From: Nitrosomonas ureae
Lineage (GTDB): Bacteria > Pseudomonadota > Gammaproteobacteria > Burkholderiales > Nitrosomonadaceae
Direction: 5' to 3'
DNA: 64,000 bases
NCBI RefSeq assembly: GCF_900108305.1
Contig: NZ_FNUX01000011.1
Location: forward strand, 1 to 64,000
In this document: in pieces, positions 32,535-44,681 of the stretch
How the letters are laid out: each line of letters opens with the position of its first letter
Numbering within the stretch: the first letter of the stretch is position 1
The notes under the pieces: generated by a model
The model's database searches: none
What the model was told of the DNA's origin: nothing
What the model saw: the letters and a program-made list of their open reading frames with translations, nothing else
Translations under genes and position numbers: made by a program

Positions 32535-32946
32535 GCTATTTGCAGATACCAATGTTTGGATATACGCCCATCTGCAACGGGCAAACGATCCGCGCTGCCA
32601 ACGGGCTGCCGAGATGGTGAAGGTATTGCCGTTAATTATCAGCAATCAAGTAATTAACGAGTATTACAGTGTCATGCTCAAAAACAAGGCCAGCGATGCT
32701 TTTATTCAGGTCAATATCAAAAACATGCTTTGGCATTGTGATGTGTTTTGTCTCAACTTGGAAACCTTGGCTGCCGCCTTTGAGATACGGGAGCGTTACC
32801 GCTTTTCATGGTGGGATAGCCTGATTGTGGCTTCTGCTTTAGAAACCGAATGCGAGCAGTTATATACCGAAGACCTGCAACACGGACAAATAATCGAAGA
32901 CCGGTTGCGGATCGTCAATCCATTTTTAGAAACGACGCAAACATGA
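32524..32946 (+). CDS. PIN-domain (VapC-like) toxin ribonuclease
   Basis: The ATG at 32524 gives 140 residues. PIN hallmarks are FADTNVWIYAH with the first catalytic Asp, a Glu in NQVINEYYSVM, the Asp in SWWDSLIVASAL, and an Asp in LYTEDLQHGQII. Such toxins cut RNA with Mg or Mn when the antitoxin is degraded. The gene overlaps the antitoxin by 11 bases and hsdS by 4 (ATGA), so the toxin-antitoxin pair is built into the restriction operon rather than merely next to it. Confidence 0.85.
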   Translation: MNARLFADTNVWIYAHLQRANDPRCQRAAEMVKVLPLIISNQVINEYYSVMLKNKASDAFIQVNIKNMLWHCDVFCLNLETLAAAFEIRERYRFSWWDSLIVASALETECEQLYTEDLQHGQIIEDRLRIVNPFLETTQT

Positions 32947-34226
32947 GTTTTCCGCGTTACGAAAGTTACAAAGATAGTGGTGTTGAATGGCTGGGAGAGG
33001 TGCCGGAGCATTGGGAAATAGCATCACTATCGAGATTGTTTAGTATAAAAGCGGGAGGGGATGTTAAAACGGAGTTCTTTTCCGAATTCCAAACCGAGAA
33101 TCATCCTTATCCCATTTATACTAACGCTAATAACGAAAATGCAGTTTATGGCTATACAAGCAAATGTAATTATTCTCCAAACACTATTACCGTAAGTGGT
33201 CGTGGTGAAGTTGGTTTTGCCGTATACAGAGATCATCCGTATGATGCAATTATTCGCTTGCTAGTATTGTCTCCATTTGGAACTGGCAATTGTAAATTTT
33301 TTTCGTATTTTATTAACGTTGTAATAAATTTTAGCGTTCAAAGTTCAGCGATAGGACAGCTTTCAACGCAGCAAATATCCCCTTATAAAGTAGCGTTTCC
33401 ATCCTTTGAGGAACAACAATCCATCACCAATTTCCTCGACTGCGAAACCGTGAAAATTGATGCACTAATTGCCGAACAACAAAGGCTGATCGAATTGCTC
33501 AAGGAAAAGCGTCAGTCAGTTATTTCCCACGCCGTCACCAAAGGCCTAAACCCCAACGCACCGATGAAGGATTCGGGTATCGAATGCCTGGGCAAAGTGC
33601 CGGAGCATTGGGAAGTCTGTGCAATAAAACGGATGACGCTTTTAATTACTGATGGGGCGCACATATCTCCTGAAACTGGAGGTGGTGTATACGACTTTAT
33701 TTCGACTAAAGATATTAGCGATAAAGGTATTGATTTTGAAGGATGCCTCAAAACAACATCCTCAAGTTATGAATACCTTGTGCGGACTGGTTGCCAGCCA
33801 ATTTGCGGAGATATTTTATTTAGCAAAGATGGCACAATTGGAAGAACAGTAGTCATCAAAGAACAACGTGATTTTGTTGTAGCTTCGTCGTTAATAATTA
33901 TTCGACCGGATAGCGATATTTTAGATTCCAGTTACTTCAACTATCTTTGTCAGTCATCTATTGTAGTTCAGCAAGTTGAAGGCTTTGTTAAAGGCGCAGG
34001 TTTGCCTCGTCTTTCGATTCAGAATCTACTTAAAGTATTTGGTGTGTTTCCATCATTTGTTGAACAACACTCTATCGTCACATTTCTCGACAATGAAACC
34101 GCCAAACTCGATACCCTAACCACGGAAGCCAAAACCGCCATTACCCTGCTCCAGGAACGCCGCACCGCCCTGATTTCCGCCACCGTGACCGGGAAAATTG
34201 ACGTGCGTGGGGCTGGTCTCAGCTAA
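32943..34226 (+). CDS. hsdS: Type I restriction-modification specificity subunit
   Basis: The ATG at 32943 (overlapping the PIN gene stop) gives 427 residues. HsdS recognises the two halves of the target sequence. Two target-recognition domains are visible, each introduced by the same spacer: YKDSGVEWLGEVPEHWE near the start and MKDSGIECLGKVPEHWE near 205-221. Each is followed by a conserved helix (NFLDCETVKIDALIAEQQRL and TFLDNETAKLDTLTTEAKTA) that sets the spacing. Codon use in the recognition domains looks more AT-rich than the conserved parts, typical of swapped TRDs. The target sequence cannot be predicted. Confidence 0.93.
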   Translation: MSFPRYESYKDSGVEWLGEVPEHWEIASLSRLFSIKAGGDVKTEFFSEFQTENHPYPIYTNANNENAVYGYTSKCNYSPNTITVSGRGEVGFAVYRDHPYDAIIRLLVLSPFGTGNCKFFSYFINVVINFSVQSSAIGQLSTQQISPYKVAFPSFEEQQSITNFLDCETVKIDALIAEQQRLIELLKEKRQSVISHAVTKGLNPNAPMKDSGIECLGKVPEHWEVCAIKRMTLLITDGAHISPETGGGVYDFISTKDISDKGIDFEGCLKTTSSSYEYLVRTGCQPICGDILFSKDGTIGRTVVIKEQRDFVVASSLIIIRPDSDILDSSYFNYLCQSSIVVQQVEGFVKGAGLPRLSIQNLLKVFGVFPSFVEQHSIVTFLDNETAKLDTLTTEAKTAITLLQERRTALISATVTGKIDVRGAGLS

Positions 34227-34310: not shown

Positions 34311-34586
34311 ATGCGTACTATGACCTCTGTTGAAGCCCAAAACCATTTTGGCGAATTGCTGGATACAGCGCAACGCGAACCGATAACCATTACTCGCCGT
34401 GGACGTCCTGTGGCGTTTATGGTTTCCTGCCTGGATATGGAGGAACTCATGGAAATCCGTAAGCAGCGTTCCAAAGCGGTGGCGGCTTTCGAAAGTTTTT
34501 TCGCTGAAACCGATAAAAAATTAACGCCGGAAGCGGATGCCTTAACCGTTGAAGCTGTCAAGCAGTTGGTCAATGAGCTTCGCTAA
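34311..34586 (+). CDS. Phd/YefM-family antitoxin
   Basis: The 91-residue product opens with the Phd/YefM DNA-binding fold: MTSVEAQNHFGELLDTAQREPITITRRGRP. The C-terminal half is a charged helix that should wrap the toxin. Such antitoxins neutralise their toxin and repress the promoter, here probably through the two GTATTAGCTA boxes upstream. It overlaps the following PIN toxin gene by 14 bases. It has its own promoter inside the restriction operon, so hsdR can be transcribed from it too. Confidence 0.88.
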   Translation: MRTMTSVEAQNHFGELLDTAQREPITITRRGRPVAFMVSCLDMEELMEIRKQRSKAVAAFESFFAETDKKLTPEADALTVEAVKQLVNELR

Positions 34587-34995
34587 ACGAATTGTCATTG
34601 ATACCAGCACGTTGATCAGTACATTGTTAAAACCGCAGTCAGTTCCCAGGCAAGCCTTCAATTATGCCTTGGCAACCGGAACGCTTTGCGTTTCGCCTGC
34701 TATGCTGGCTGAGTTGGAAAACGTTTTGTTGCCCGATAAGTTTGATCGTTACGTTGATCGGGAAAGCCGCCTGGGTTTTTTACAGCTTTATCATGCTGCA
34801 AGCGCTCTATTCCCGGTCACTCTTGACGAGGAAAAAATCCTGACACCGCCATGCCGGGATTCTCGCGACAACAAGTTTTTGGCTTTGGCATTGCATTGTT
34901 CGGCACAGACTGTGATTTCAAGCGATGAGGATTTGCTTATCCTGAACCCTTGGCATGAAATTGCAATTGTTAGCCCTGCCCGATTTTTGTCATGA
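34573..34995 (+). CDS. PIN-domain toxin partner of the Phd-like antitoxin
   Basis: The ATG at 34573 gives 140 residues. IVIDTSTLISTLLKP holds the first PIN aspartate; the middle SPAMLAELENVLL gives the Glu; CRDSRDNKFLALALH gives the Asp pair; and VISSDEDLLIL the last acidic residues. It belongs to the COG1569-like PIN group, different from the VapC-like toxin at 32.5 kb, so the two modules were acquired separately. It should cut RNA. Its stop overlaps the hsdR start (ATGA). Confidence 0.85.
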   Translation: MSFAKRIVIDTSTLISTLLKPQSVPRQAFNYALATGTLCVSPAMLAELENVLLPDKFDRYVDRESRLGFLQLYHAASALFPVTLDEEKILTPPCRDSRDNKFLALALHCSAQTVISSDEDLLILNPWHEIAIVSPARFLS

Positions 34996-37900
34996 GCGAT
35001 TTACATAAGGAAATCAATTTCGAGGTTGAAATCTGTGATCATCTGGCCGCTAACGGCTGGCTGACTGCGCAAGGCGATGCGGCAAACTATGACCGCACAC
35101 GGGCATTATTTCCGGCAGATGTGCTGGCTTGGGTGCAGGATACCCAACCGAAGGCATGGGAAGCACTGGTGAAGAACCACGGCGCACAGGCGGCGGATGT
35201 GTTGCTGGGGCGGTTGCGGGATTCACTCAACCAGCGCGGCACGTTAGACGTTTTACGCCACGGAATTGAACTGCTTGGGCTTAGGCAACCGCTCATGCTT
35301 GCCCAATTCAAACCCGCCTTGGCTATGAACCCGGATATTCTCGTCAAATACGCCGCTAATCGGCTGCGGGTTGTGCGGCAATTGCGCTATTCGCTGCACA
35401 ATGAGAATTCGCTTGATTTGGGTTTGTTTCTGAACGGGATTCCGGTTGCTACGTCGGAATTAAAAACCAACTTCACTCAGTCGGTGGAGGATGCGATTGA
35501 TCAATATCGCTTCGATCGCGAACCGCGCCCGAAGGGGCAGGGCAGTGCTGAACCGTTATTGTCTTTCCCCAATGGCGCATTGGTGCATTTCGCGGTGAGT
35601 AATAGCGAAGTGCATATGACCACGCGGCTGGAAGGAGCAGCAACGCGCTTTTTGCCATTCAACCGGGGCGATAACGGCGCGGCGGGCAATCCACCCAACG
35701 AACAAGGGTATCGCACCGCTTATTTATGGGAAGAAATCTGGGCGCGGAATAGCTGGCTGGAGATTTTGGGCCGGTATCTGGTGACGCAGAAGGACGAGAA
35801 AAAACAGATTAAGAAAATCATCTTCCCGCGTTTTCATCAGTTGGATGCAACGCGCAAGCTGCTGGCGGCGGTGTTGCAGGAAGGCGCGGGCGGTAAATAC
35901 CTGATCCAGCATTCGGCGGGCTCAGGCAAAACCAATTCAATTGCATGGTCGGCGCATTTTCTGGCCGATTTGCACAATGCCGGCCATGAAAAACTGTTTG
36001 ATACCGTGTTGGTGGTTTCTGACCGCACTGTGCTGGATGATCAGTTACAGGAAGCGATTTTCGATTTTGAGCGCACCGCTGGCGTGGTCGCCACGATCAA
36101 AGGGGAGGGCGCTAGTAAAAGTGCGGAATTGGCGGCGGCGCTGTCCGGCGGCAAGAAAATTGTGGTTTGCACCATCCAGACTTTCCCTTTCGCGCTTAAG
36201 GCCGTGCAGGAATTGGCTGCAACGCACGGTAAGCGCTTTGCTGTAATTGCGGATGAAGCGCATTCGTCGCAAACCGGAGAGGCTGCGGCCAAACTGAAAG
36301 CCGTGCTATCGGCGGAAGAATTGCAAGAACTGGCCGACGGCGGGGAAATCAGCACCGAAGACATACTGGCCGTGCAAATGGAAAACAGGGCGGCGGAAAG
36401 CGGCATTACCTATGTGGCTTTTACCGCGACACCCAAAGCCAAAACCCTTGAACTGTTTGGACGATTGCCCAATCCTGATTTGCCAGCCGGTGCGGACAAT
36501 CTGCCTGCGCCGTTTCATGTCTATTCGATGCGGCAAGCCATTGAAGAAGGCTTCATCCTCGATGTGCTGCAAAACTATACCCCTTATAAATTAGCGTTCA
36601 AACTCGCGCATGATGGCAAAGAACTGGATGATAAAGAAGTCGAGCGTAACGAAGCCCTGAAAGGCATTATGCGCTGGGTCAGGCTGCATCCTTACAATAT
36701 CAGCCAGAAAGTGCAGGTGGTGGTCGAACATTTCCGCGAAAATGTAGCCCTTTTGCTGAATGGCAAAGCAAAAGCCATGGTGGTGGTCGGAAGCCGCATT
36801 GAAGCGGTGCGCTGGCGGCTGGCGATTGATGTCTATATCAAAGCCCAAGGCTACAAAATCGGCACGCTGGTGGCGTTTTCCGGTGAGGTCAACGATAGCC
36901 AGTCAGGCAGCGAGCCGTTCAGCGAAACCAGCAGGACCATGAACCCGAACCTGAAAGGGCAGGGTATCCGTGAGGCTTTCAATACAGAAGACTATCAAAT
37001 CCTGCTGGTTGCCAACAAATTTCAAACCGGATTCGATCAGCCCCTGTTGTGCGGGATGTATGTCGATAAACGGCTGGCAGGCATTACGGCGGTGCAAACC
37101 TTATCTCGCCTCAATCGCGCCCATCAGGGCAAAGATACTACTTATGTGGTGGACTTCGTGAATGACCCGGAAGAAATTCTGACCGCCTTCCTTGCCTATT
37201 ACGAAACCGCAGAATTAGCCAACGTCACCGACCCGCACCTGGTTTATGATTTACGCATGAAGCTGGACGCGGCGGGTTTTTATGATGAGTTTGAGGTCAA
37301 TCGTGTGGTTGAGGTGGAGTTTAACCCGAAGGCCAGGCAAAGCGATCTGGCCGGAGCGGTAGAGCCAGTCGTCGCCCGGATTTTGCATCGTTACAAAGCG
37401 GCTCAGGAAAAGCTGAAAGCGGCCAATGCCAGGGAAGATGGCAAAGCAGCCGAAGATGCCGAGAACGAAATGAACGCGCTTATCCTGTTCAAACATGATA
37501 TGGGCGCATTCCAGCGTATGTATGCGTTCCTTTCCCAGATATTCGATTATGGCAACACCGCCATTGAGAAACGTTTTATCTTCTACAAAAGATTGATTCC
37601 ACTGCTGGAGTTCGGACGGGAACGAGAAGGGCTTGACCTCTCCAAGGTCATGCTGACGCACCATAACCTGAAAGTTGAGGGAAAGCGGACATTAGCCCTG
37701 GTCGATGGCGAATATCCAAAACTGATGCCAATGGAAGGCGCAGGTACCGGGCAAGTTCGGGAAAAAGAAACAGCATATCTGGTGGAAATTATTGCCAGGG
37801 TGAACGATTTGTTTGAAGGTGAATTGTCCGATGACGACCAGCTTATTTATGTTAACAATGTCATCAAAGGTAAGTTGCTGGAATCGAAAACACTGGTTCA

Positions 37901-38114
37901 GCAAGCTGCCAACAACACCAAACAGCAGTTTGCCAACTCGCCTGACCTGTCCAACGAGTTGATGAATGCCATTATGGATGCCTTGGCCGCCCATAGCACC
38001 ATGAGCAAACAAGCCCTGGAGTCAGAAAAAGTGCGCAGCGGATTGCGGGATATTTTGCTCGGCCCGGCACAACTTTATGAGGCGCTTAGGGAAAAATCGG
38101 AAGGACATCCGTGA
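34992..38114 (+). CDS. hsdR: Type I restriction enzyme motor/nuclease subunit
   Basis: The 1040-residue HsdR translocates DNA with ATP and cuts it away from the recognition site. The N-terminal nuclease shows ATSELKTNFTQSVEDAIDQY near 150-170 (the E-x-K of PD-(D/E)xK). The helicase part has Walker A QHSAGSGKTNS near 305-315, VIADEAHSSQ (DEAH) near 418-427, and AFTATPK. The C-terminal helical part binds HsdM. It appears complete and the ATGA overlap links it to the upstream PIN gene. An OLD-type ATPase remnant overlaps its stop. Confidence 0.95.
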   Translation: MSDLHKEINFEVEICDHLAANGWLTAQGDAANYDRTRALFPADVLAWVQDTQPKAWEALVKNHGAQAADVLLGRLRDSLNQRGTLDVLRHGIELLGLRQPLMLAQFKPALAMNPDILVKYAANRLRVVRQLRYSLHNENSLDLGLFLNGIPVATSELKTNFTQSVEDAIDQYRFDREPRPKGQGSAEPLLSFPNGALVHFAVSNSEVHMTTRLEGAATRFLPFNRGDNGAAGNPPNEQGYRTAYLWEEIWARNSWLEILGRYLVTQKDEKKQIKKIIFPRFHQLDATRKLLAAVLQEGAGGKYLIQHSAGSGKTNSIAWSAHFLADLHNAGHEKLFDTVLVVSDRTVLDDQLQEAIFDFERTAGVVATIKGEGASKSAELAAALSGGKKIVVCTIQTFPFALKAVQELAATHGKRFAVIADEAHSSQTGEAAAKLKAVLSAEELQELADGGEISTEDILAVQMENRAAESGITYVAFTATPKAKTLELFGRLPNPDLPAGADNLPAPFHVYSMRQAIEEGFILDVLQNYTPYKLAFKLAHDGKELDDKEVERNEALKGIMRWVRLHPYNISQKVQVVVEHFRENVALLLNGKAKAMVVVGSRIEAVRWRLAIDVYIKAQGYKIGTLVAFSGEVNDSQSGSEPFSETSRTMNPNLKGQGIREAFNTEDYQILLVANKFQTGFDQPLLCGMYVDKRLAGITAVQTLSRLNRAHQGKDTTYVVDFVNDPEEILTAFLAYYETAELANVTDPHLVYDLRMKLDAAGFYDEFEVNRVVEVEFNPKARQSDLAGAVEPVVARILHRYKAAQEKLKAANAREDGKAAEDAENEMNALILFKHDMGAFQRMYAFLSQIFDYGNTAIEKRFIFYKRLIPLLEFGREREGLDLSKVMLTHHNLKVEGKRTLALVDGEYPKLMPMEGAGTGQVREKETAYLVEIIARVNDLFEGELSDDDQLIYVNNVIKGKLLESKTLVQQAANNTKQQFANSPDLSNELMNAIMDALAAHSTMSKQALESEKVRSGLRDILLGPAQLYEALREKSEGHP

Positions 38115-38250
38115 ATATTCTTATTGATACCATCCGGGTTGCTGGTTTTAGAGGCATTAAAAATCTTGAGATTTCATTACCGCGTAAACTGTGTTGATTG
38201 GTGCCAATAATTCAGGCAAGACCTCGTTAATAATGGTGCGCTTGGCATAA
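38111..38250 (+). pseudogene. OLD-family ATPase remnant, frameshifted after 24 codons
   Basis: A GTG at 38111 overlaps the hsdR stop (GTGA) and reads MNILIDTIRVAGFRGIKNLE, then a strand that breaks at a TGA. In the next frame the protein resumes as TVLIGANNSGKTSLI, the Walker A loop of OLD/RecF-type ATPases, and stops at 38250. One base appears lost in an A-run near 38187-38190. Nothing of the rest of the gene remains. Complete relatives are ATPases, often with Toprim nuclease, used in phage defence; this fragment shows the ancestral operon carried one. Confidence 0.75.
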
Positions 38251-38253
38251 ATT

Positions 38254-38673
38254 CTAAGCATGTATATTTTTTGTTAATTTTCGTTTTAGCTTTTTATTGG
38301 AAATTGACTTTAAATATTTTTTCAAACTTACCAGCTTACGTTTGCGGTCATGAATTTCCGGCCAGAACTTCAATGTACGTTTGACGTAGAGCAAAAAGAT
38401 CGTTGTTTTACGCTTGTTCTTGCCACTGGGGCTTTGCAGTAACACCTGTTCTCTGAAATGTTTGTCAAGCTTGCCGAGAATGCCGGCTTCTTCAAACGCT
38501 TCCAGTGCCGCTACCTGCCGGTTACTGAGTTTTTTCTCCAGTTTCCCAGTGGGGATAATCCATTGGCGTTCCTGCCGGCTGGTAATCAGATATACCTTAA
38601 GCTTTGTTTTGCTCATGACGACAGGTACTACCGCGATGCGCTTTTTCTTATGATGTTGTTTCTTGCTAGTCAT
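38254..38673 (-). CDS. Basic Nudix hydrolase (diphosphoinositol-polyphosphate-phosphohydrolase-like)
   Basis: The 139-residue protein has a Nudix fold: RQWIIPTGKLEKKLS then AALEAFEEAGILGKL, with the EExG part of the Nudix box intact (Glu61, Glu62, Gly64). The usual Arg before the box helix is replaced by Leu, and the first box Glu is not in its normal place, so the box is imperfect. The ends are strikingly basic: MTSKKQHHKKKR at the start and KRKLVSLKKYLKSISNKKLK near the end, which fits binding to a polyanion. It lies 142 bases after a ParA-like gene and a CHAD gene on the same strand. A polyphosphate or diphosphoinositol-type substrate is inferred, not shown. Confidence 0.75.
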   Translation of the reverse strand: MTSKKQHHKKKRIAVVPVVMSKTKLKVYLITSRQERQWIIPTGKLEKKLSNRQVAALEAFEEAGILGKLDKHFREQVLLQSPSGKNKRKTTIFLLYVKRTLKFWPEIHDRKRKLVSLKKYLKSISNKKLKRKLTKNIHA

Positions 38674-38815
38674 AACCCCGCTTACTTTCTGCCGCTAGAT
38701 GGGCGTTTTGATAGCGTTTATTATCAGCCACAGCTATCAATACAAATCAAATAGAATTCTATCGTTATATCGAACCCATAATTCCCGATCCGGTTTCATA
38801 TTTCAAGCGCTACAT

Positions 38816-39568
38816 TTATGCTAGCTTTTTGGCGGTTTCTGAAACCTCTTCCCAAAGTTCGTGATAGGCGTAGCTAGCTTGCCTGGACTTAGCAAAAGTA
38901 TCAACAGGTGCTTTGTGCACGCCCATTTTCTCGATATCCGATGAATAAGGAATGACCGTATTCAAAAATATTTTATATCTCGCAGACATGGCTTCCATTG
39001 TTGCTTTATGCAGAGATTTTTGCGCCTGAACCATCGAGAAAAAAGGAATGATCTTATCTTGCGGATAATCATTATCCTTAAAAAAAGCCATCAGTTGCTC
39101 AAAAGTCCGTTCTGAAAGCGTAGTGGGTATAACGGGAACCAGTACCATATCGGATGCAATAAATATGGATTCCGACAGATGGCTAATAGATGGAGGACAA
39201 TCCAATACCACTAAGTCATATTCTTTGTTGAAGCCTTTTAATACGCGTTTCAAACGATTCTTGCGTTTATTGAAACCGGCCAGTAGCGTGTCAAAGTTAC
39301 GGAAACTCAAGTGTGCCGGAATAATATCCAGATTTTCAAAGTCACTTGCTTTAATGTGTTTTACCAGGTTTTCATAAGCTTTAAAAAAGCGCTTAGCCCA
39401 TTTCTTTGAGGATGGTTGGACTCTGAAATAAAAGGACGATGCACCCTGAGGATCCAAGTCGATGAGTAATGTTTTTGCCCCGGATTTGGCAGCCCAATAG
39501 GCAAGATTGACTGAAGTAGCCGTTTTTCCAACACCTCCCTTCATGCTATAGCAAGCAATCACTTTCAT
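38816..39568 (-). CDS. ParA/MinD-family P-loop ATPase without a ParB partner
   Basis: The 250-residue protein begins MKVIACYSMKGGVGKTATSV with the deviant Walker A KGGVGKTA typical of ParA/MinD; LLIDLDPQGASSF (Walker A') and LVVLDCPPSI (Walker B) follow. It has no N-terminal helix-turn-helix and no C-terminal amphipathic membrane helix, so it resembles nucleoid-gliding, cargo-positioning ParA proteins. It starts 4 bases inside the CHAD gene stop (ATGA), and no parB-like gene is present. I infer that the CHAD protein, or a particle it coats, is the cargo. Confidence 0.85.
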   Translation of the reverse strand: MKVIACYSMKGGVGKTATSVNLAYWAAKSGAKTLLIDLDPQGASSFYFRVQPSSKKWAKRFFKAYENLVKHIKASDFENLDIIPAHLSFRNFDTLLAGFNKRKNRLKRVLKGFNKEYDLVVLDCPPSISHLSESIFIASDMVLVPVIPTTLSERTFEQLMAFFKDNDYPQDKIIPFFSMVQAQKSLHKATMEAMSARYKIFLNTVIPYSSDIEKMGVHKAPVDTFAKSRQASYAYHELWEEVSETAKKLA

Positions 39569-41085
39569 TTTGAATCTCCTGTTTTTGCCGCCTCAAATAC
39601 CAGATCAAACTCAATGGTCATGTTTTCCGTGAAAAAATCCGCTAATGCATTCTCAACTTTAGGGCGCTCTTCTAATTTTTTTTGATGCAAGATTGCTACC
39701 AAACCACTCAACGCTTTAGACATTTCGATCCGGGTATCATCAACATAGCTGCTTAAAAATTCTATTTGGATGCAATAATCATTGTAGTTACCTAATATTG
39801 TTTGTATCTTTTTAATTTTACCGGCTATTTTTCCTGTACGTCTCTTTGGTAATAAATCAGCAAAAAATTCGATCAAGTAGCGTAGCTTCTTAAATTCAAT
39901 ACGTAATTCATGAATTTTTTCATCGGCTGACTGACTATCAATAGCCGCACTCATTGCCAGCATTTTATGATAGCGCTTTAACAATAATTTTTTTACCACT
40001 TGCAATACTGGTGTTGATGCCATTGGTGTCTGATAAGCGGAGTGCTGGGATAATTCTGCGGTACAGATAGCCAGATCGGCCCTGTAGTTGTCAGAAGACA
40101 AATATCCCGCCACTTTATTTTTTTCTTGTTTACGCTGTTTCTTAATTAAACTATAAAGCTCGGTTAAGCCACTTCCAAAATTTTCTGGCAACATCGCACG
40201 ATAATTGTCCTGGGCCAGTAAAAATACGTCCAGATCCCGCAGCTTATTCGTTTTGCTTGCAATTGAAGAGAGTCTGGGTCTTAGCGCATCAATCATTGTT
40301 GCCGGCAATGCTTTTTTTAACAGACTGATTAATGATCTTAATTTTCGAATGTTCACTCGAAATTGATGCAAAAACTCGGTATCGGTATCTGCAATTACGC
40401 CGCCAACATGAAGTCTTGCCTGATCAAGCATCGCAACAGCCATTGCTCGCACCGCTGGTTCTGTTTGCATATCCTCGGTCAAGGGCGGCAGACTATATTG
40501 TTTTGGTTCAAGGGCATGGATAGCTTGCCCCATTAATAAAAATCTCAATCCGAAATCATTAACTTTTGCTTTAATGCAAGGTCTGAGTAACCGTACAGCG
40601 CTGGTGTAATATTTTGCATACCCGCGCAATGCCTGGAGTGTGAAATAACAGGTAATTTTGCCGCCAACCGCCGATTGTGTTAAACGACCCTTCACCACGA
40701 TTTTTTGATTGTCATTGCGCAGTGAAAAATCCGTTTCAAGCAAGTTTAGAGATGCGATCGGTAATACTGCGCGTAAACCAATTAATTTTTGCAATTTATT
40801 CTTAACCGGACTCTCTGAAAATTCCCACCAGAATCTAACATCGCTTGTTGCTTTTACTTCGTCAATGCAACCAGAGTGGTCAAGGAGTTGAAACTTCTGC
40901 TTATCCACTTGGTAAAGCAAATAACCCGCGTGCCATAGATGAGCATCAAAATCATCGTAAAATTGCAGCGTCGACGCTGTAGCCGGATTAGCATCAGTAT
41001 CAAATTCAGATGATATTGCCGTGAGGATGTCGGTGTTCTTGATCGCCTCGTTTAATTCCCAGGTATTTACCGGTAAAGAATTCAT
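39565..41085 (-). CDS. CHAD-domain protein with CYTH-like N-terminal region
   Basis: The 506 residues divide into an N-terminal ~200-residue part with strands like QFYDDFDAHLWHAGYLLYQV that resembles a degenerate CYTH (triphosphate tunnel) domain, and a helical CHAD domain from about 215 to 495. CHAD marks are FLHQFRVNIRKLRSLISLL, LRDLDVFLL, KIHELRIEFKKLRYLIEFF and TILGNYND: helices lined with conserved His, Arg and Lys. CHAD proteins bind polyphosphate, and in Ralstonia they attach to polyphosphate granules. Here it is the first gene of a CHAD-ParA-Nudix series. Cytosolic; whether the CYTH-like part is catalytic is doubtful. Confidence 0.85.
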   Translation of the reverse strand: MNSLPVNTWELNEAIKNTDILTAISSEFDTDANPATASTLQFYDDFDAHLWHAGYLLYQVDKQKFQLLDHSGCIDEVKATSDVRFWWEFSESPVKNKLQKLIGLRAVLPIASLNLLETDFSLRNDNQKIVVKGRLTQSAVGGKITCYFTLQALRGYAKYYTSAVRLLRPCIKAKVNDFGLRFLLMGQAIHALEPKQYSLPPLTEDMQTEPAVRAMAVAMLDQARLHVGGVIADTDTEFLHQFRVNIRKLRSLISLLKKALPATMIDALRPRLSSIASKTNKLRDLDVFLLAQDNYRAMLPENFGSGLTELYSLIKKQRKQEKNKVAGYLSSDNYRADLAICTAELSQHSAYQTPMASTPVLQVVKKLLLKRYHKMLAMSAAIDSQSADEKIHELRIEFKKLRYLIEFFADLLPKRRTGKIAGKIKKIQTILGNYNDYCIQIEFLSSYVDDTRIEMSKALSGLVAILHQKKLEERPKVENALADFFTENMTIEFDLVFEAAKTGDSK

Positions 41086-42168: not shown

Positions 42169-42308
42169 AATTTTCAAAAAATCAGTTCACCCAATAATTG
42201 AAATTAGCATATATTCGTTTTATCACTAAGAGGCATGTCTGGGGCTAGCTTGATTCAACAGTGGATGCATCACATTTATTAATCAACCGATATCACAAAA
42301 AGGAAATT

Positions 42309-44681
42309 ATGGATACTTCACATAAATGGCGTTTTTTTCGTTCCGGTGGCTTTGATCAGGTCCGCCTAGAAACGGAAGGAGATTTAAAATCTCTCGGTGA
42401 GCTTGATCCAAAGCTCTGGGCAGCACTGAGTTGCCCAACTAGCAATCTTGAATTCGATAGCAAAACACTTGAATTCATCGATGCCGATGCTGATGGTCAT
42501 ATCCGTGTACCCGAAATTATTGCAGCCGCTAATTGGGCGACATCATTGCTTAAAAATCCTGAAGATCTTACTCATGGATCGGATACCCTGCCCCTGAATT
42601 CTATTGATGATAGTTCTCCAGAAGGAGCTGCGTTGCTTGCTTCAGCAAGACAAATTTTGCTGAACATTGGCAAAAACGATGAACTTGCCATCTCAATTGA
42701 AGATACTGCCGATTTGAATAAGATTTATGCGAGCACAAAATTCAATGGTGACGGCATTATTCCGTCCAGCGCAGCCACCGACGCTGATACACAAACAGTC
42801 ATTGAAGAAATCATTACTTGTGTAGGTGCGGAAGAAGATCGTTCGGGATTAGCCGGTGTTTCGGAAGAGAAGATCATTCAATTCTTTACGGAAGCTAATG
42901 CTCATTCGGAATGGTGGCAATTAGCCGAACATCATGCAGCCAACATTCTTCCGTTAGGAGAAGAGACTCAAGCTGCTAAGAAAGCTTTTGATAGCGTCAA
43001 AGCCAAAATTGACGATTATTTTACGCGTTGTCGGCTTGCAGAATTCGATCAACGGGCCGGTGAGCCACTCAATCCCGCAATCACAGAATATGAAGCGCTG
43101 GCCAATAAAAATTTATCTGCTGAATCCGAACAAGTCGTCTCCTTACCTGTAGCAAAAATTGAAGCGAATAAACCGCTGCCGCTTGCCGCAGGAATTAATC
43201 CTGCGTGGATACATGCGATCACTGAATTTAGAGATAAAGTTATCAGTCCGCTTCTGGGCAGTAAAGAAAATCTGAGTAGTGAAGAATGGCAACAATTGTG
43301 CAATAAGTTTTCAACTCATCAAGCATGGTTGGATGTTAAACGAGGGGCTATCGTTGAATCGTTAGGAATCAAACGCATTCGCACCATTCTGGCTGGTGGC
43401 TTTCAAGAGAAAATCATGTCTCTGATCCATAAGGATAAATCTCTTGCTTATGCATGGGATGCCATTAATTCTGTTGAAAAATTGATTCGCTACCACCGCG
43501 ATCTTTTTCAGTTATTGAATAATTTTGTATCGTTCCGCGATTTTTATACGGCTCAGCACAAGGCCATATTTCAGGCAGGATCATTATATTTGGATGGCCG
43601 CAGCTGTGATTTTTGCCTGCGTGTGACGGATATCAATAAGCATAGCGGCATGGCCAATTTAAGTGGCACTTACCTTGCCTATTGTGATTGTCAACGCCGA
43701 GGTGGCGATGAGAAAATGAGCATTGCTGCGGCTTTTACCAATGGGGATGCGGATAATCTTATGGTTGGTCGTAATGGTGTATTTTATGACCGCAAAGGAC
43801 AGGACTGGGACGCGACCATCGTCAAAATTATCGAACACCCGATTAGCGTGCGCCAAGCCTTCTGGTATCCGTACAAGCGGATTGGCAAGATGATTGGAGA
43901 GCAAATCGAAAAAATGGCAAGTGCGCGAGAGAAATCAGTTCAAGACCAGGCAACATCAGGTATCGCAAACACTGCACAAGCTACCGAAGCTGGTAAAGCA
44001 CCTCCTGCTCCATTCGACGTCGGCAAGTTCGCAGGGATTTTTGCGGCGATTGGTCTGGCCATTGGAGCCATTGGCACCGCGATCGCAGCCGTCGTAACAG
44101 GTTTTATCAGTTTAATCTGGTGGCAAATGCCATTGGCTATTGTTGGATTATTCCTATTAATCTCTGGTCCATCAGTTCTCCTTGCTTTTCTCAAGCTACG
44201 TAAGCGTAACCTGGCTCCATTACTGGATGGCAATGGCTGGGCTGTCAATACTCGCGCTATTATTAATATTCCGTTTGGTGCGTCACTGACACAAATGGCT
44301 ACCTTACCACCCGGCGCTCAGCGTTCACTCACCGATCCTTATGCGGAAAAGAAAAGTCCATGGAAGTCTTATTTCTTTATTTTGTTACTGTTAGGGAGTA
44401 TCGCTTATCTCTGGCATAGCGGTTACCTGAATCACGACGTTCTGGAAACAGTACGCAAGCAATTTTCAACGAATAAAAGTGAAGCAACAATCGAAAATAA
44501 AGTTAAACCTGATACAGATATTCCGGCCGTGCCTCAATCAGATGCTGCTCCAAGTGATCATAAGCCAGCTACAAAAGATGAACCACAATCTAGTGCAGAA
44601 TTTTCAGAAGTTTTACCTGATATACAGCCAACATCAGTACCAATATTAACTGCACCAGCATCTAAGCCAGTTAATCGCTGA
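42309..44681 (+). CDS. Large EF-hand-containing membrane protein of unknown function
   Basis: The ATG at 42309 (AGGAAATT upstream) gives 790 residues; an in-frame GTG at 42261 is less likely. One complete EF-hand loop is seen at 58-69: Asp58, Asp60, Asp62, Gly63, Ile65 and Glu69 at the canonical positions. A second calcium-like loop, FNGDGI, lies near 160. Two cysteine pairs, GRSCDFCLR and LAYCDCQRR, could bind a metal. Residues about 575-645 hold two or three transmembrane helices, another lies near 690-705, and the C-terminus is a disordered Pro/Ser/Ala-rich tail. I do not recognise a named family. It stands alone and ends at a strong terminator. Confidence 0.75.
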   Translation: MDTSHKWRFFRSGGFDQVRLETEGDLKSLGELDPKLWAALSCPTSNLEFDSKTLEFIDADADGHIRVPEIIAAANWATSLLKNPEDLTHGSDTLPLNSIDDSSPEGAALLASARQILLNIGKNDELAISIEDTADLNKIYASTKFNGDGIIPSSAATDADTQTVIEEIITCVGAEEDRSGLAGVSEEKIIQFFTEANAHSEWWQLAEHHAANILPLGEETQAAKKAFDSVKAKIDDYFTRCRLAEFDQRAGEPLNPAITEYEALANKNLSAESEQVVSLPVAKIEANKPLPLAAGINPAWIHAITEFRDKVISPLLGSKENLSSEEWQQLCNKFSTHQAWLDVKRGAIVESLGIKRIRTILAGGFQEKIMSLIHKDKSLAYAWDAINSVEKLIRYHRDLFQLLNNFVSFRDFYTAQHKAIFQAGSLYLDGRSCDFCLRVTDINKHSGMANLSGTYLAYCDCQRRGGDEKMSIAAAFTNGDADNLMVGRNGVFYDRKGQDWDATIVKIIEHPISVRQAFWYPYKRIGKMIGEQIEKMASAREKSVQDQATSGIANTAQATEAGKAPPAPFDVGKFAGIFAAIGLAIGAIGTAIAAVVTGFISLIWWQMPLAIVGLFLLISGPSVLLAFLKLRKRNLAPLLDGNGWAVNTRAIINIPFGASLTQMATLPPGAQRSLTDPYAEKKSPWKSYFFILLLLGSIAYLWHSGYLNHDVLETVRKQFSTNKSEATIENKVKPDTDIPAVPQSDAAPSDHKPATKDEPQSSAEFSEVLPDIQPTSVPILTAPASKPVNR

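Follow-up and report, generated by a model that had tools for sequence, protein, structure and literature searches.

The McdA-McdB system, encoded by two genes, positions the carboxysome, a non-DNA cargo, by means of a ParA-type ATPase and a cargo-bound partner (PMC13052382). Polyphosphate (polyP) granules are common bacterial storage bodies. In Pseudomonas aeruginosa, the even spacing of these granules requires AlgP, which is a histone H1-like KPAA-repeat protein and not an ATPase (PMC9239181), and according to a 2025 review the energy need for polyP granule localisation remains to be seen (PMC13052382). In Acidithiobacillus, a folD-ppk-parA-CHAD cluster that is highly conserved in the genus places parA and a CHAD gene beside ppk1; its CHAD protein is a CYTH-CHAD, however, and the passages of the two reports that deal with the cluster label the ParA only as a plasmid or chromosome partition protein, without any idea of granule positioning (PMC10892726, PMC6416229). 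The polyphosphate operon ppk-pptA-SLI_4382 of Streptomyces has a CHAD protein gene followed by a Nudix gene, but it starts with ppk and has no ParA among its three genes, and in the part of the study concerned with this operon deletion of the Nudix gene gave no obvious phenotype (PMC8003754). Here we describe a locus at positions 38,254 to 41,085 of a 64,000-nucleotide (nt) stretch of Nitrosomonas ureae DNA (contig NZ_FNUX01000011.1, positions 1 to 64,000, referred to as the window), where genes for a CHAD protein, a ParA-type ATPase, and a Nudix hydrolase follow one another. The original prediction, made from the sequence of the window, read them as a three-part system for positioning and turnover of polyP granules and knew of no described system of this kind. 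For the ParA, the novelty holds within the literature covered (open-licence PubMed Central (PMC), mostly at listing level), in which no paper was found to suggest one for polyP granules, but the ppk-parA-CHAD and ppk-CHAD-Nudix orders of Acidithiobacillus and Streptomyces had already been reported.

The three genes were confirmed on the same strand, with the predicted 4-nt overlap of the first two, by open reading frame (ORF) coordinates and Pfam matches:

41085-39565, minus strand: CHAD protein gene, first gene of the unit, 506 amino acids (aa); PF05235, E 1.1e-48, residues 218-444
40450..41085, minus strand: N-terminal ~212 aa of the CHAD protein, fast-evolving, no match in Pfam
39754..40434, minus strand: CHAD domain, polyphosphate-binding module; H240, R243, and R247 equated with H253, R256, and R260 of CtCHAD from Chlorobium tepidum
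39565..39568, minus strand: ATGA overlap of 4 nt, in which the CHAD gene ends and the ParA gene begins, from ORF coordinates
39568-38816, minus strand: ParA-type ATPase gene, 250 aa; AAA_31, E 4.7e-39; basic, CHAD-linked subfamily
38673-38254, minus strand: DIPP-like Nudix hydrolase gene, accessory, 139 aa; PF00293, E 9.1e-6

We conclude that the CHAD-ParA pair is a real, widespread, and conserved unit without ParB. On balance, we lean towards regarding it as the two-gene core of a system for polyP granules, in which ParA positions the granules and an interchangeable phosphate enzyme often stands alongside. It would then belong with the ParA systems that handle a cargo, the kind of cargo being new; as a gene unit it is well supported, whereas its role in positioning is unproven.

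Relatives were collected by a scan of named genomes with a ParA alignment, that is by similarity to ParA alone, and the best 80 of 565 relatives were kept, so that the following counts describe the closest relatives only. A CHAD gene is present at 75 of these 80 loci, and at 74 of them it immediately precedes ParA in the same orientation, the gap being no larger than 50 nt except in one locus (L081, 149 nt). At the other CHAD-containing locus (L125), the CHAD gene is 881 nt from ParA with a SixA-type gene between them, and five loci (L058, L064, L069, L120, and L123) have no CHAD. None of the 22 next-best, generic ParA loci of the order sample has a CHAD gene within its flanks of about 1.5 kb, the flanks of CHAD-linked loci often being 6 kb. 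By their labels, the best 80 loci come mostly from proteobacterial and deltaproteobacterial groups, with some from Chlorobiaceae, Gemmatimonadota, KSB1, Pontiella, and Rubripirellula. Outside Nitrosomonas (six loci left out), the gap between the two genes is at most 50 nt, overlaps included, in 67/69 loci and exactly -4 in 29/69. These starts are approximate because the ORF calls use the first start codon, and 9/75 gaps are strongly negative, probably owing to over-long ORFs. Matches to the window CHAD were also found in 97/125 genomes of the family sample; among the 30 family CHAD loci fetched (L003-L032), the 21 best all have ParA next to CHAD (one of these, L012, is cut by the contig end) and the other nine have no ParA in the flanks covered.

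The linkage depends on how closely the ParA resembles that of the window. Across 111 loci from the class and phylum samples, CHAD adjoins ParA in 29/30 loci scoring at least 330 bits and in 11/14 between 300 and 330, and then in 5/33 between 270 and 300, 0/20 between 240 and 270, and 1/14 between 190 and 240; pooled, this amounts to 40/44 at 300 bits or above and 6/67 below. A partner gene conserved beside the ATPase, as in a positioning system, is seen at 74/80 of the best loci but at few of those below 300 bits. We had considered a rule that this ParA type always occurs with CHAD, and limited it to the high-scoring clade, since 61/67 loci under 300 bits lack a CHAD neighbour by the hidden Markov model (HMM); the CHAD HMM misses some, however, such as a Pfam CHAD adjoining the ParA in genome G729. 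The two proteins also diverge in parallel: over 76 pairs, CHAD and ParA distances gave a Mantel r of 0.855 (0.858 for the CHAD domain and 0.728 for the N-terminal part), the largest of 999 permutations being 0.18. Shared descent alone can yield such a correlation, which shows that both travel together. Judged by adjacency, tree, and controls, the pairing exceeds chance.

By its sequence, the ParA type is a distinct basic, CHAD-linked subfamily. Of the 399 genomes searched in the order sample, eight matched at E <=3.2e-77 and the next-best at 4.4e-41; scores in the class and phylum samples were more continuous, and the type was present in 56/370 and 59/397 genomes respectively, counts that include a sister group without detected CHAD neighbour. 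Two lysines of the deviant Walker A motif, K10 and K15 (signature lysine and P-loop lysine), are present in 76/76 proteins. The median net charge is +11 (n=76), vs. -1.5 in the 22 generic ParA proteins and +8 in 66 without CHAD, a few of which fall inside the clade. Position 154 is Arg in 117/119 sequences and Glu in 22/22 generic ones; at positions 49, 90, 184, and 219, 91-99% have a basic residue, compared with 0/22 generic ones. In a FastTree tree of 211 ParA sequences (Nitrosomonas loci L054-L056 excluded), one clade with support 0.88 unites 113 CHAD-linked tips with eight unlinked ones, while six CHAD-linked tips fall outside. The CHAD-linkage label changes 12 times on this tree vs. at least 59 times in 200 shuffles, shared ancestry being ignored.

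Several ParA loci deserve separate mention. The 66 basic ParA loci with no CHAD neighbour by HMM belong mostly to the sister group; a CHAD partner acting in trans was considered for this group, but the presence of CHAD somewhere in 50/63 such genomes decides nothing because CHAD is common in general, as in the family sample. In L239, a PPK1 gene ends 7 nt before the start of a related ParA, and in L120 (1546-4050) a ParA that falls in the CHAD-linked clade but has no CHAD neighbour lies just before a carbohydrate phosphorylase gene, perhaps pointing to another storage polymer. Long ParA proteins of about 530 aa, in which Pfam recognises the ATPase part only, adjoin CHAD genes in L139 and L140. 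Many of their relatives are full-length among the 120 listed of 518 matches, and some are named BcsQ or chromosome partitioning protein. Their extra C-terminal domain gave a weak hhalign match to the N-terminal domain of CHAD (E 0.0028, probability 11%). The long ORF family is real, but given this weak match we dropped the domain as proof of a contact with CHAD; a long ParA with a possibly CYTH-like C-terminal domain would suit contact through the CHAD N-terminal domain.

The connection to polyP comes from the CHAD protein itself. A profile built from 51 CHAD relatives, searched against solved structures, matched CtCHAD best (3e0s/6qv7, E 7e-98). CtCHAD was crystallised with polyP, roles were assigned to H253, R256, and R260, polyP contacts were mutated, and CHAD domains bind long polyP (PMC6537752). 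The equivalent residues, matched through the common HxxRxxxR motif, are kept in 74/76 (H240), 75/76 (R243), and 75/76 (R247) of the CHAD proteins. In one Chlorobiaceae locus (L122), a CHAD protein that is 78% identical to CtCHAD over 315 aligned positions is encoded 2 nt upstream of a ParA of the CHAD-linked type; the crystallised construct differs in covering residues 208-522 only (PMC6537752). At the genome level, PPK1 (E <=1e-55) was found in 53/56 class genomes with the ParA type (genomes without a CHAD neighbour included) vs. 175/314 without it (Fisher p 1.6e-9, uncorrected for kinship). The three ParA-containing genomes without PPK1 (G595, G702, and G787) come from one family, all have the order CHAD-ParA-Nudix, and have at least two PPK2 matches each. 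The Nitrosomonas ureae genome has one PPK1 and one PPK2.

In contrast to the CHAD domain, which has a mean identity of 42%, the N-terminal part of the CHAD proteins is poorly conserved (22%), and an EXEXK motif is absent from the first 60 aa in 71/76. It gave a collinear but weak hhalign match to the CYTH-CHAD paralogue of the genome (E 0.0027, probability 11%), so that it is perhaps a degenerate CYTH/TTM-like domain; we also regard it as a candidate ParA-contact region. The paralogue (L052, contig C33 of genome G000) is CYTH-CHAD-like with an EIELK start and lies directly beside the single PPK2 gene, without a ParA neighbour. Another genome (G068) has two copies of the CHAD-ParA pair (L038 and L039), in both of which the CHAD frame is broken into two ORFs.

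The third gene is more variable than the original prediction had assumed. The check that it suggested, a search for co-occurrence and fixed order of the three families, bore this out for CHAD and ParA but not for Nudix. Across 20 loci of Nitrosomonas, comprising that of the window together with L033-L051, there is a SixA-type gene in nine cases, Nudix in four, CYTH in two, and none of these in five, one of which (L037) ends 418 nt past ParA. Downstream on the same strand, the 69 non-Nitrosomonas loci have CYTH in 22, Nudix in 12 (five with both), and PPK1 in one; upstream they have PPK2 in three, SixA-type in three, and PPK1 in one. Among loci with at least 900 nt of downstream sequence, 27/63 carry CYTH, Nudix, SixA-type, or PPK there, and within 5 kb on either strand such a gene is present at 39/69 loci (0/22 controls, whose flanks are shorter). 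Pfam confirmed examples of each partner type. With CYTH, SixA-type, PPK, or none of these in most relatives, and a third gene that differs between clades, we rejected the fixed three-gene system. In the Granulosicoccus locus L057, whose ParA is 77% identical to that of the window (the highest among the best 80 outside Nitrosomonas/AOB labels), the order is CHAD-ParA-CYTH-Nudix, and the trio in the window may accordingly be this four-gene set minus CYTH; in L124, CYTH and Nudix are fused, the Nudix half scoring slightly below the Pfam cut-off. The Nudix gene of the window starts 142 nt past ParA, and therefore is not coupled to it the way CHAD and ParA are coupled to each other. In three close relatives the Nudix ORF begins 287, 288, and 410 nt past ParA, and such spacing suggests that Nudix may have its own promoter. 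A promoter and terminator scan gave no signals above the level of shuffled sequence.

The Nudix protein has a net charge of +29, and its predicted polybasic ends proved correct (+6 over the first 15 residues and +11 over the last 35). Both single-sequence and profile searches found DIPPs first. The 19 best PDB sequences (first E 1.3e-20) comprise 18 that carry the name DIPP or DDP1 and one, 2duk, that is named MS0616. In Ddp1, an endopolyphosphatase, E80, E83, and E84 are in the active site and R152 is essential for coordination of inositides or polyphosphate (PMC8064635). The equivalents of Ddp1 E80, E83, E84, E148, and R152 (E58, E61, E62, E106, and R110) are kept in 13/13 Nudix partners, the equivalence of R110 and R152 resting on a common PE-x3-R spacing. 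The Nudix partners differ from Ddp1/DIPP, the nearest solved relatives, in the Nudix-box arginine (Ddp1 R79), which is replaced in 13/13 (Leu in eight, Gln in three, Glu in one, Met in one). With DIPPs as the nearest solved relatives, the idea in the original prediction that it trims polyP or a related phosphoanhydride gained support.

We propose that the CHAD domain would hold the polyP granule and that ParA, as an ATP-bound dimer, would use its conserved basic surface to sit on the nucleoid. On the granule, the CHAD protein would, perhaps with its N-terminal domain, stimulate ATP hydrolysis by ParA and thereby its local release, and granules tracking the ParA gradient would be spaced and inherited. 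The Nudix hydrolase (elsewhere CYTH, SixA-type, or PPK) would trim or make polyP or related compounds. The contact could be made by the fast-evolving N-terminal domain of CHAD; alternatively, the basic ParA could recognise polyP directly. If true, the known cargos of the ParA family would be joined by another, served by a dedicated ATPase that is linked to a polyP-binding receptor, and the question is testable in species that have the pair, which is present in records of Methylotuvimicrobium buryatense 5G (L128) and Nitrosomonas europaea (L107).

Compared with McdA-McdB, the proposed receptor is large, binds polyP, and lacks a basic N-terminus, the ParA sequence shows no special closeness to McdA, and the positioning is a prediction. 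Several observations weigh against granule positioning. The N-termini of the CHAD proteins have no positive net charge on average (mean -0.12 for residues 1-15, n=76), although at least one Lys or Arg occurs within residues 2-12 in 45/76, some starts being uncertain from the ORF calls; known ParA partners are reported to use an N-terminus that is positively charged and disordered (PMC10241942). In similarity searches, the ParA is no nearer to McdA than to Soj: its best matches in the PDB are Soj and an unnamed protein of the ParA family, and McdA ranks far below them. The eight unlinked members of the CHAD-linked clade have no neighbouring CHAD, and the sister group, which is basic as well, mostly has none detected by the CHAD HMM. 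The Mantel, Fisher, and label-shuffle tests ignore shared ancestry and show association, not independent origins. Finally, no literature on granules in Nitrosomonas ureae was found in open-licence PMC.

Some of the same evidence would fit a polyP-linked ATP switch, in which ParA and CHAD control granule nucleation, granule size, or the access of PPK and hydrolases, any change of position being a by-product. We consider this doubtful, yet the strongest competitor: the hydrolases and kinases beside the pair swap freely, PPK1 stands just ahead of a related ParA in L239, the unusually basic ParA could itself bind polyP, and CHAD lacks a basic partner tail. The retained ATPase signature residues of ParA proteins argue for positioning instead, as do the ParA/MinD ATPases with an adjoining cargo gene in Halothiobacillus neapolitanus (H. 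neapolitanus), which position that cargo (PMC10241942). A further, unlikely reading assumes a separate ParA branch for which polyP itself is a ligand, bound as well as DNA, so that the ATPase would cycle or bridge between nucleoid and granule with CHAD as the receptor, and in some lineages would be fused to an extra, perhaps CYTH-like, cargo-contact domain; the basic positions that it would draw on are 49, 55, 90, 184, and 219, together with 154 and 214 (Glu in generic ParA).

A role of the operon in the handling of soluble phosphoanhydrides (tripolyphosphate, Ap5A/Ap6A) or in phosphohistidine signalling, with CHAD as a sensor and granules incidental, is quite improbable. Such a role would suit the CYTH and SixA-type enzymes, whose substrates are other phosphate compounds. 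Ddp1 likewise acts on Ap5A/Ap6A too (PMC8064635), but CHAD domains bind long polyP (PMC6537752), the pair co-occurs with PPK1 or PPK2, and the ParA would be left unexplained. That the genes are chance neighbours, or the remnant of a plasmid or chromosome partition system, is barely credible. ParA family membership and the name partition protein in the Acidithiobacillus papers (PMC10892726, PMC6416229) speak for a remnant; chance neighbourhood is excluded because of the linkage data, with gene order conserved across records from several phyla and correlated divergence of CHAD and ParA. As the original prediction stated, no ParB lies beside the ParA: a ParB_N search of the genome gave five matches, on contigs C27, C6, C21, C24, and C22, and none on the window contig (C31). 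We rejected partition as the main explanation, as ParB_N is absent from the window contig and the best match, on C27, adjoins a different ParA.

Three features near the locus are on the plus strand. A type I restriction cluster comprises hsdS (32850-34226) and hsdR (34992-38114); between these two, at 34311-34995, a gene for a Phd/YefM antitoxin overlaps one for a PIN-domain protein. On the other side, an ORF of 806 aa (42261-44681) has no match in Pfam or NCBIfam at E 0.1. Between hsdR and the Nudix gene, a short frame at 38111-38197 overlaps the end of hsdR and meets an early stop (VNILIDTIRVAGFRGIKNLEISLPRKLC); it looks like the beginning of an ATPase gene of RecF/SMC type that has been truncated, the family being judged by eye.

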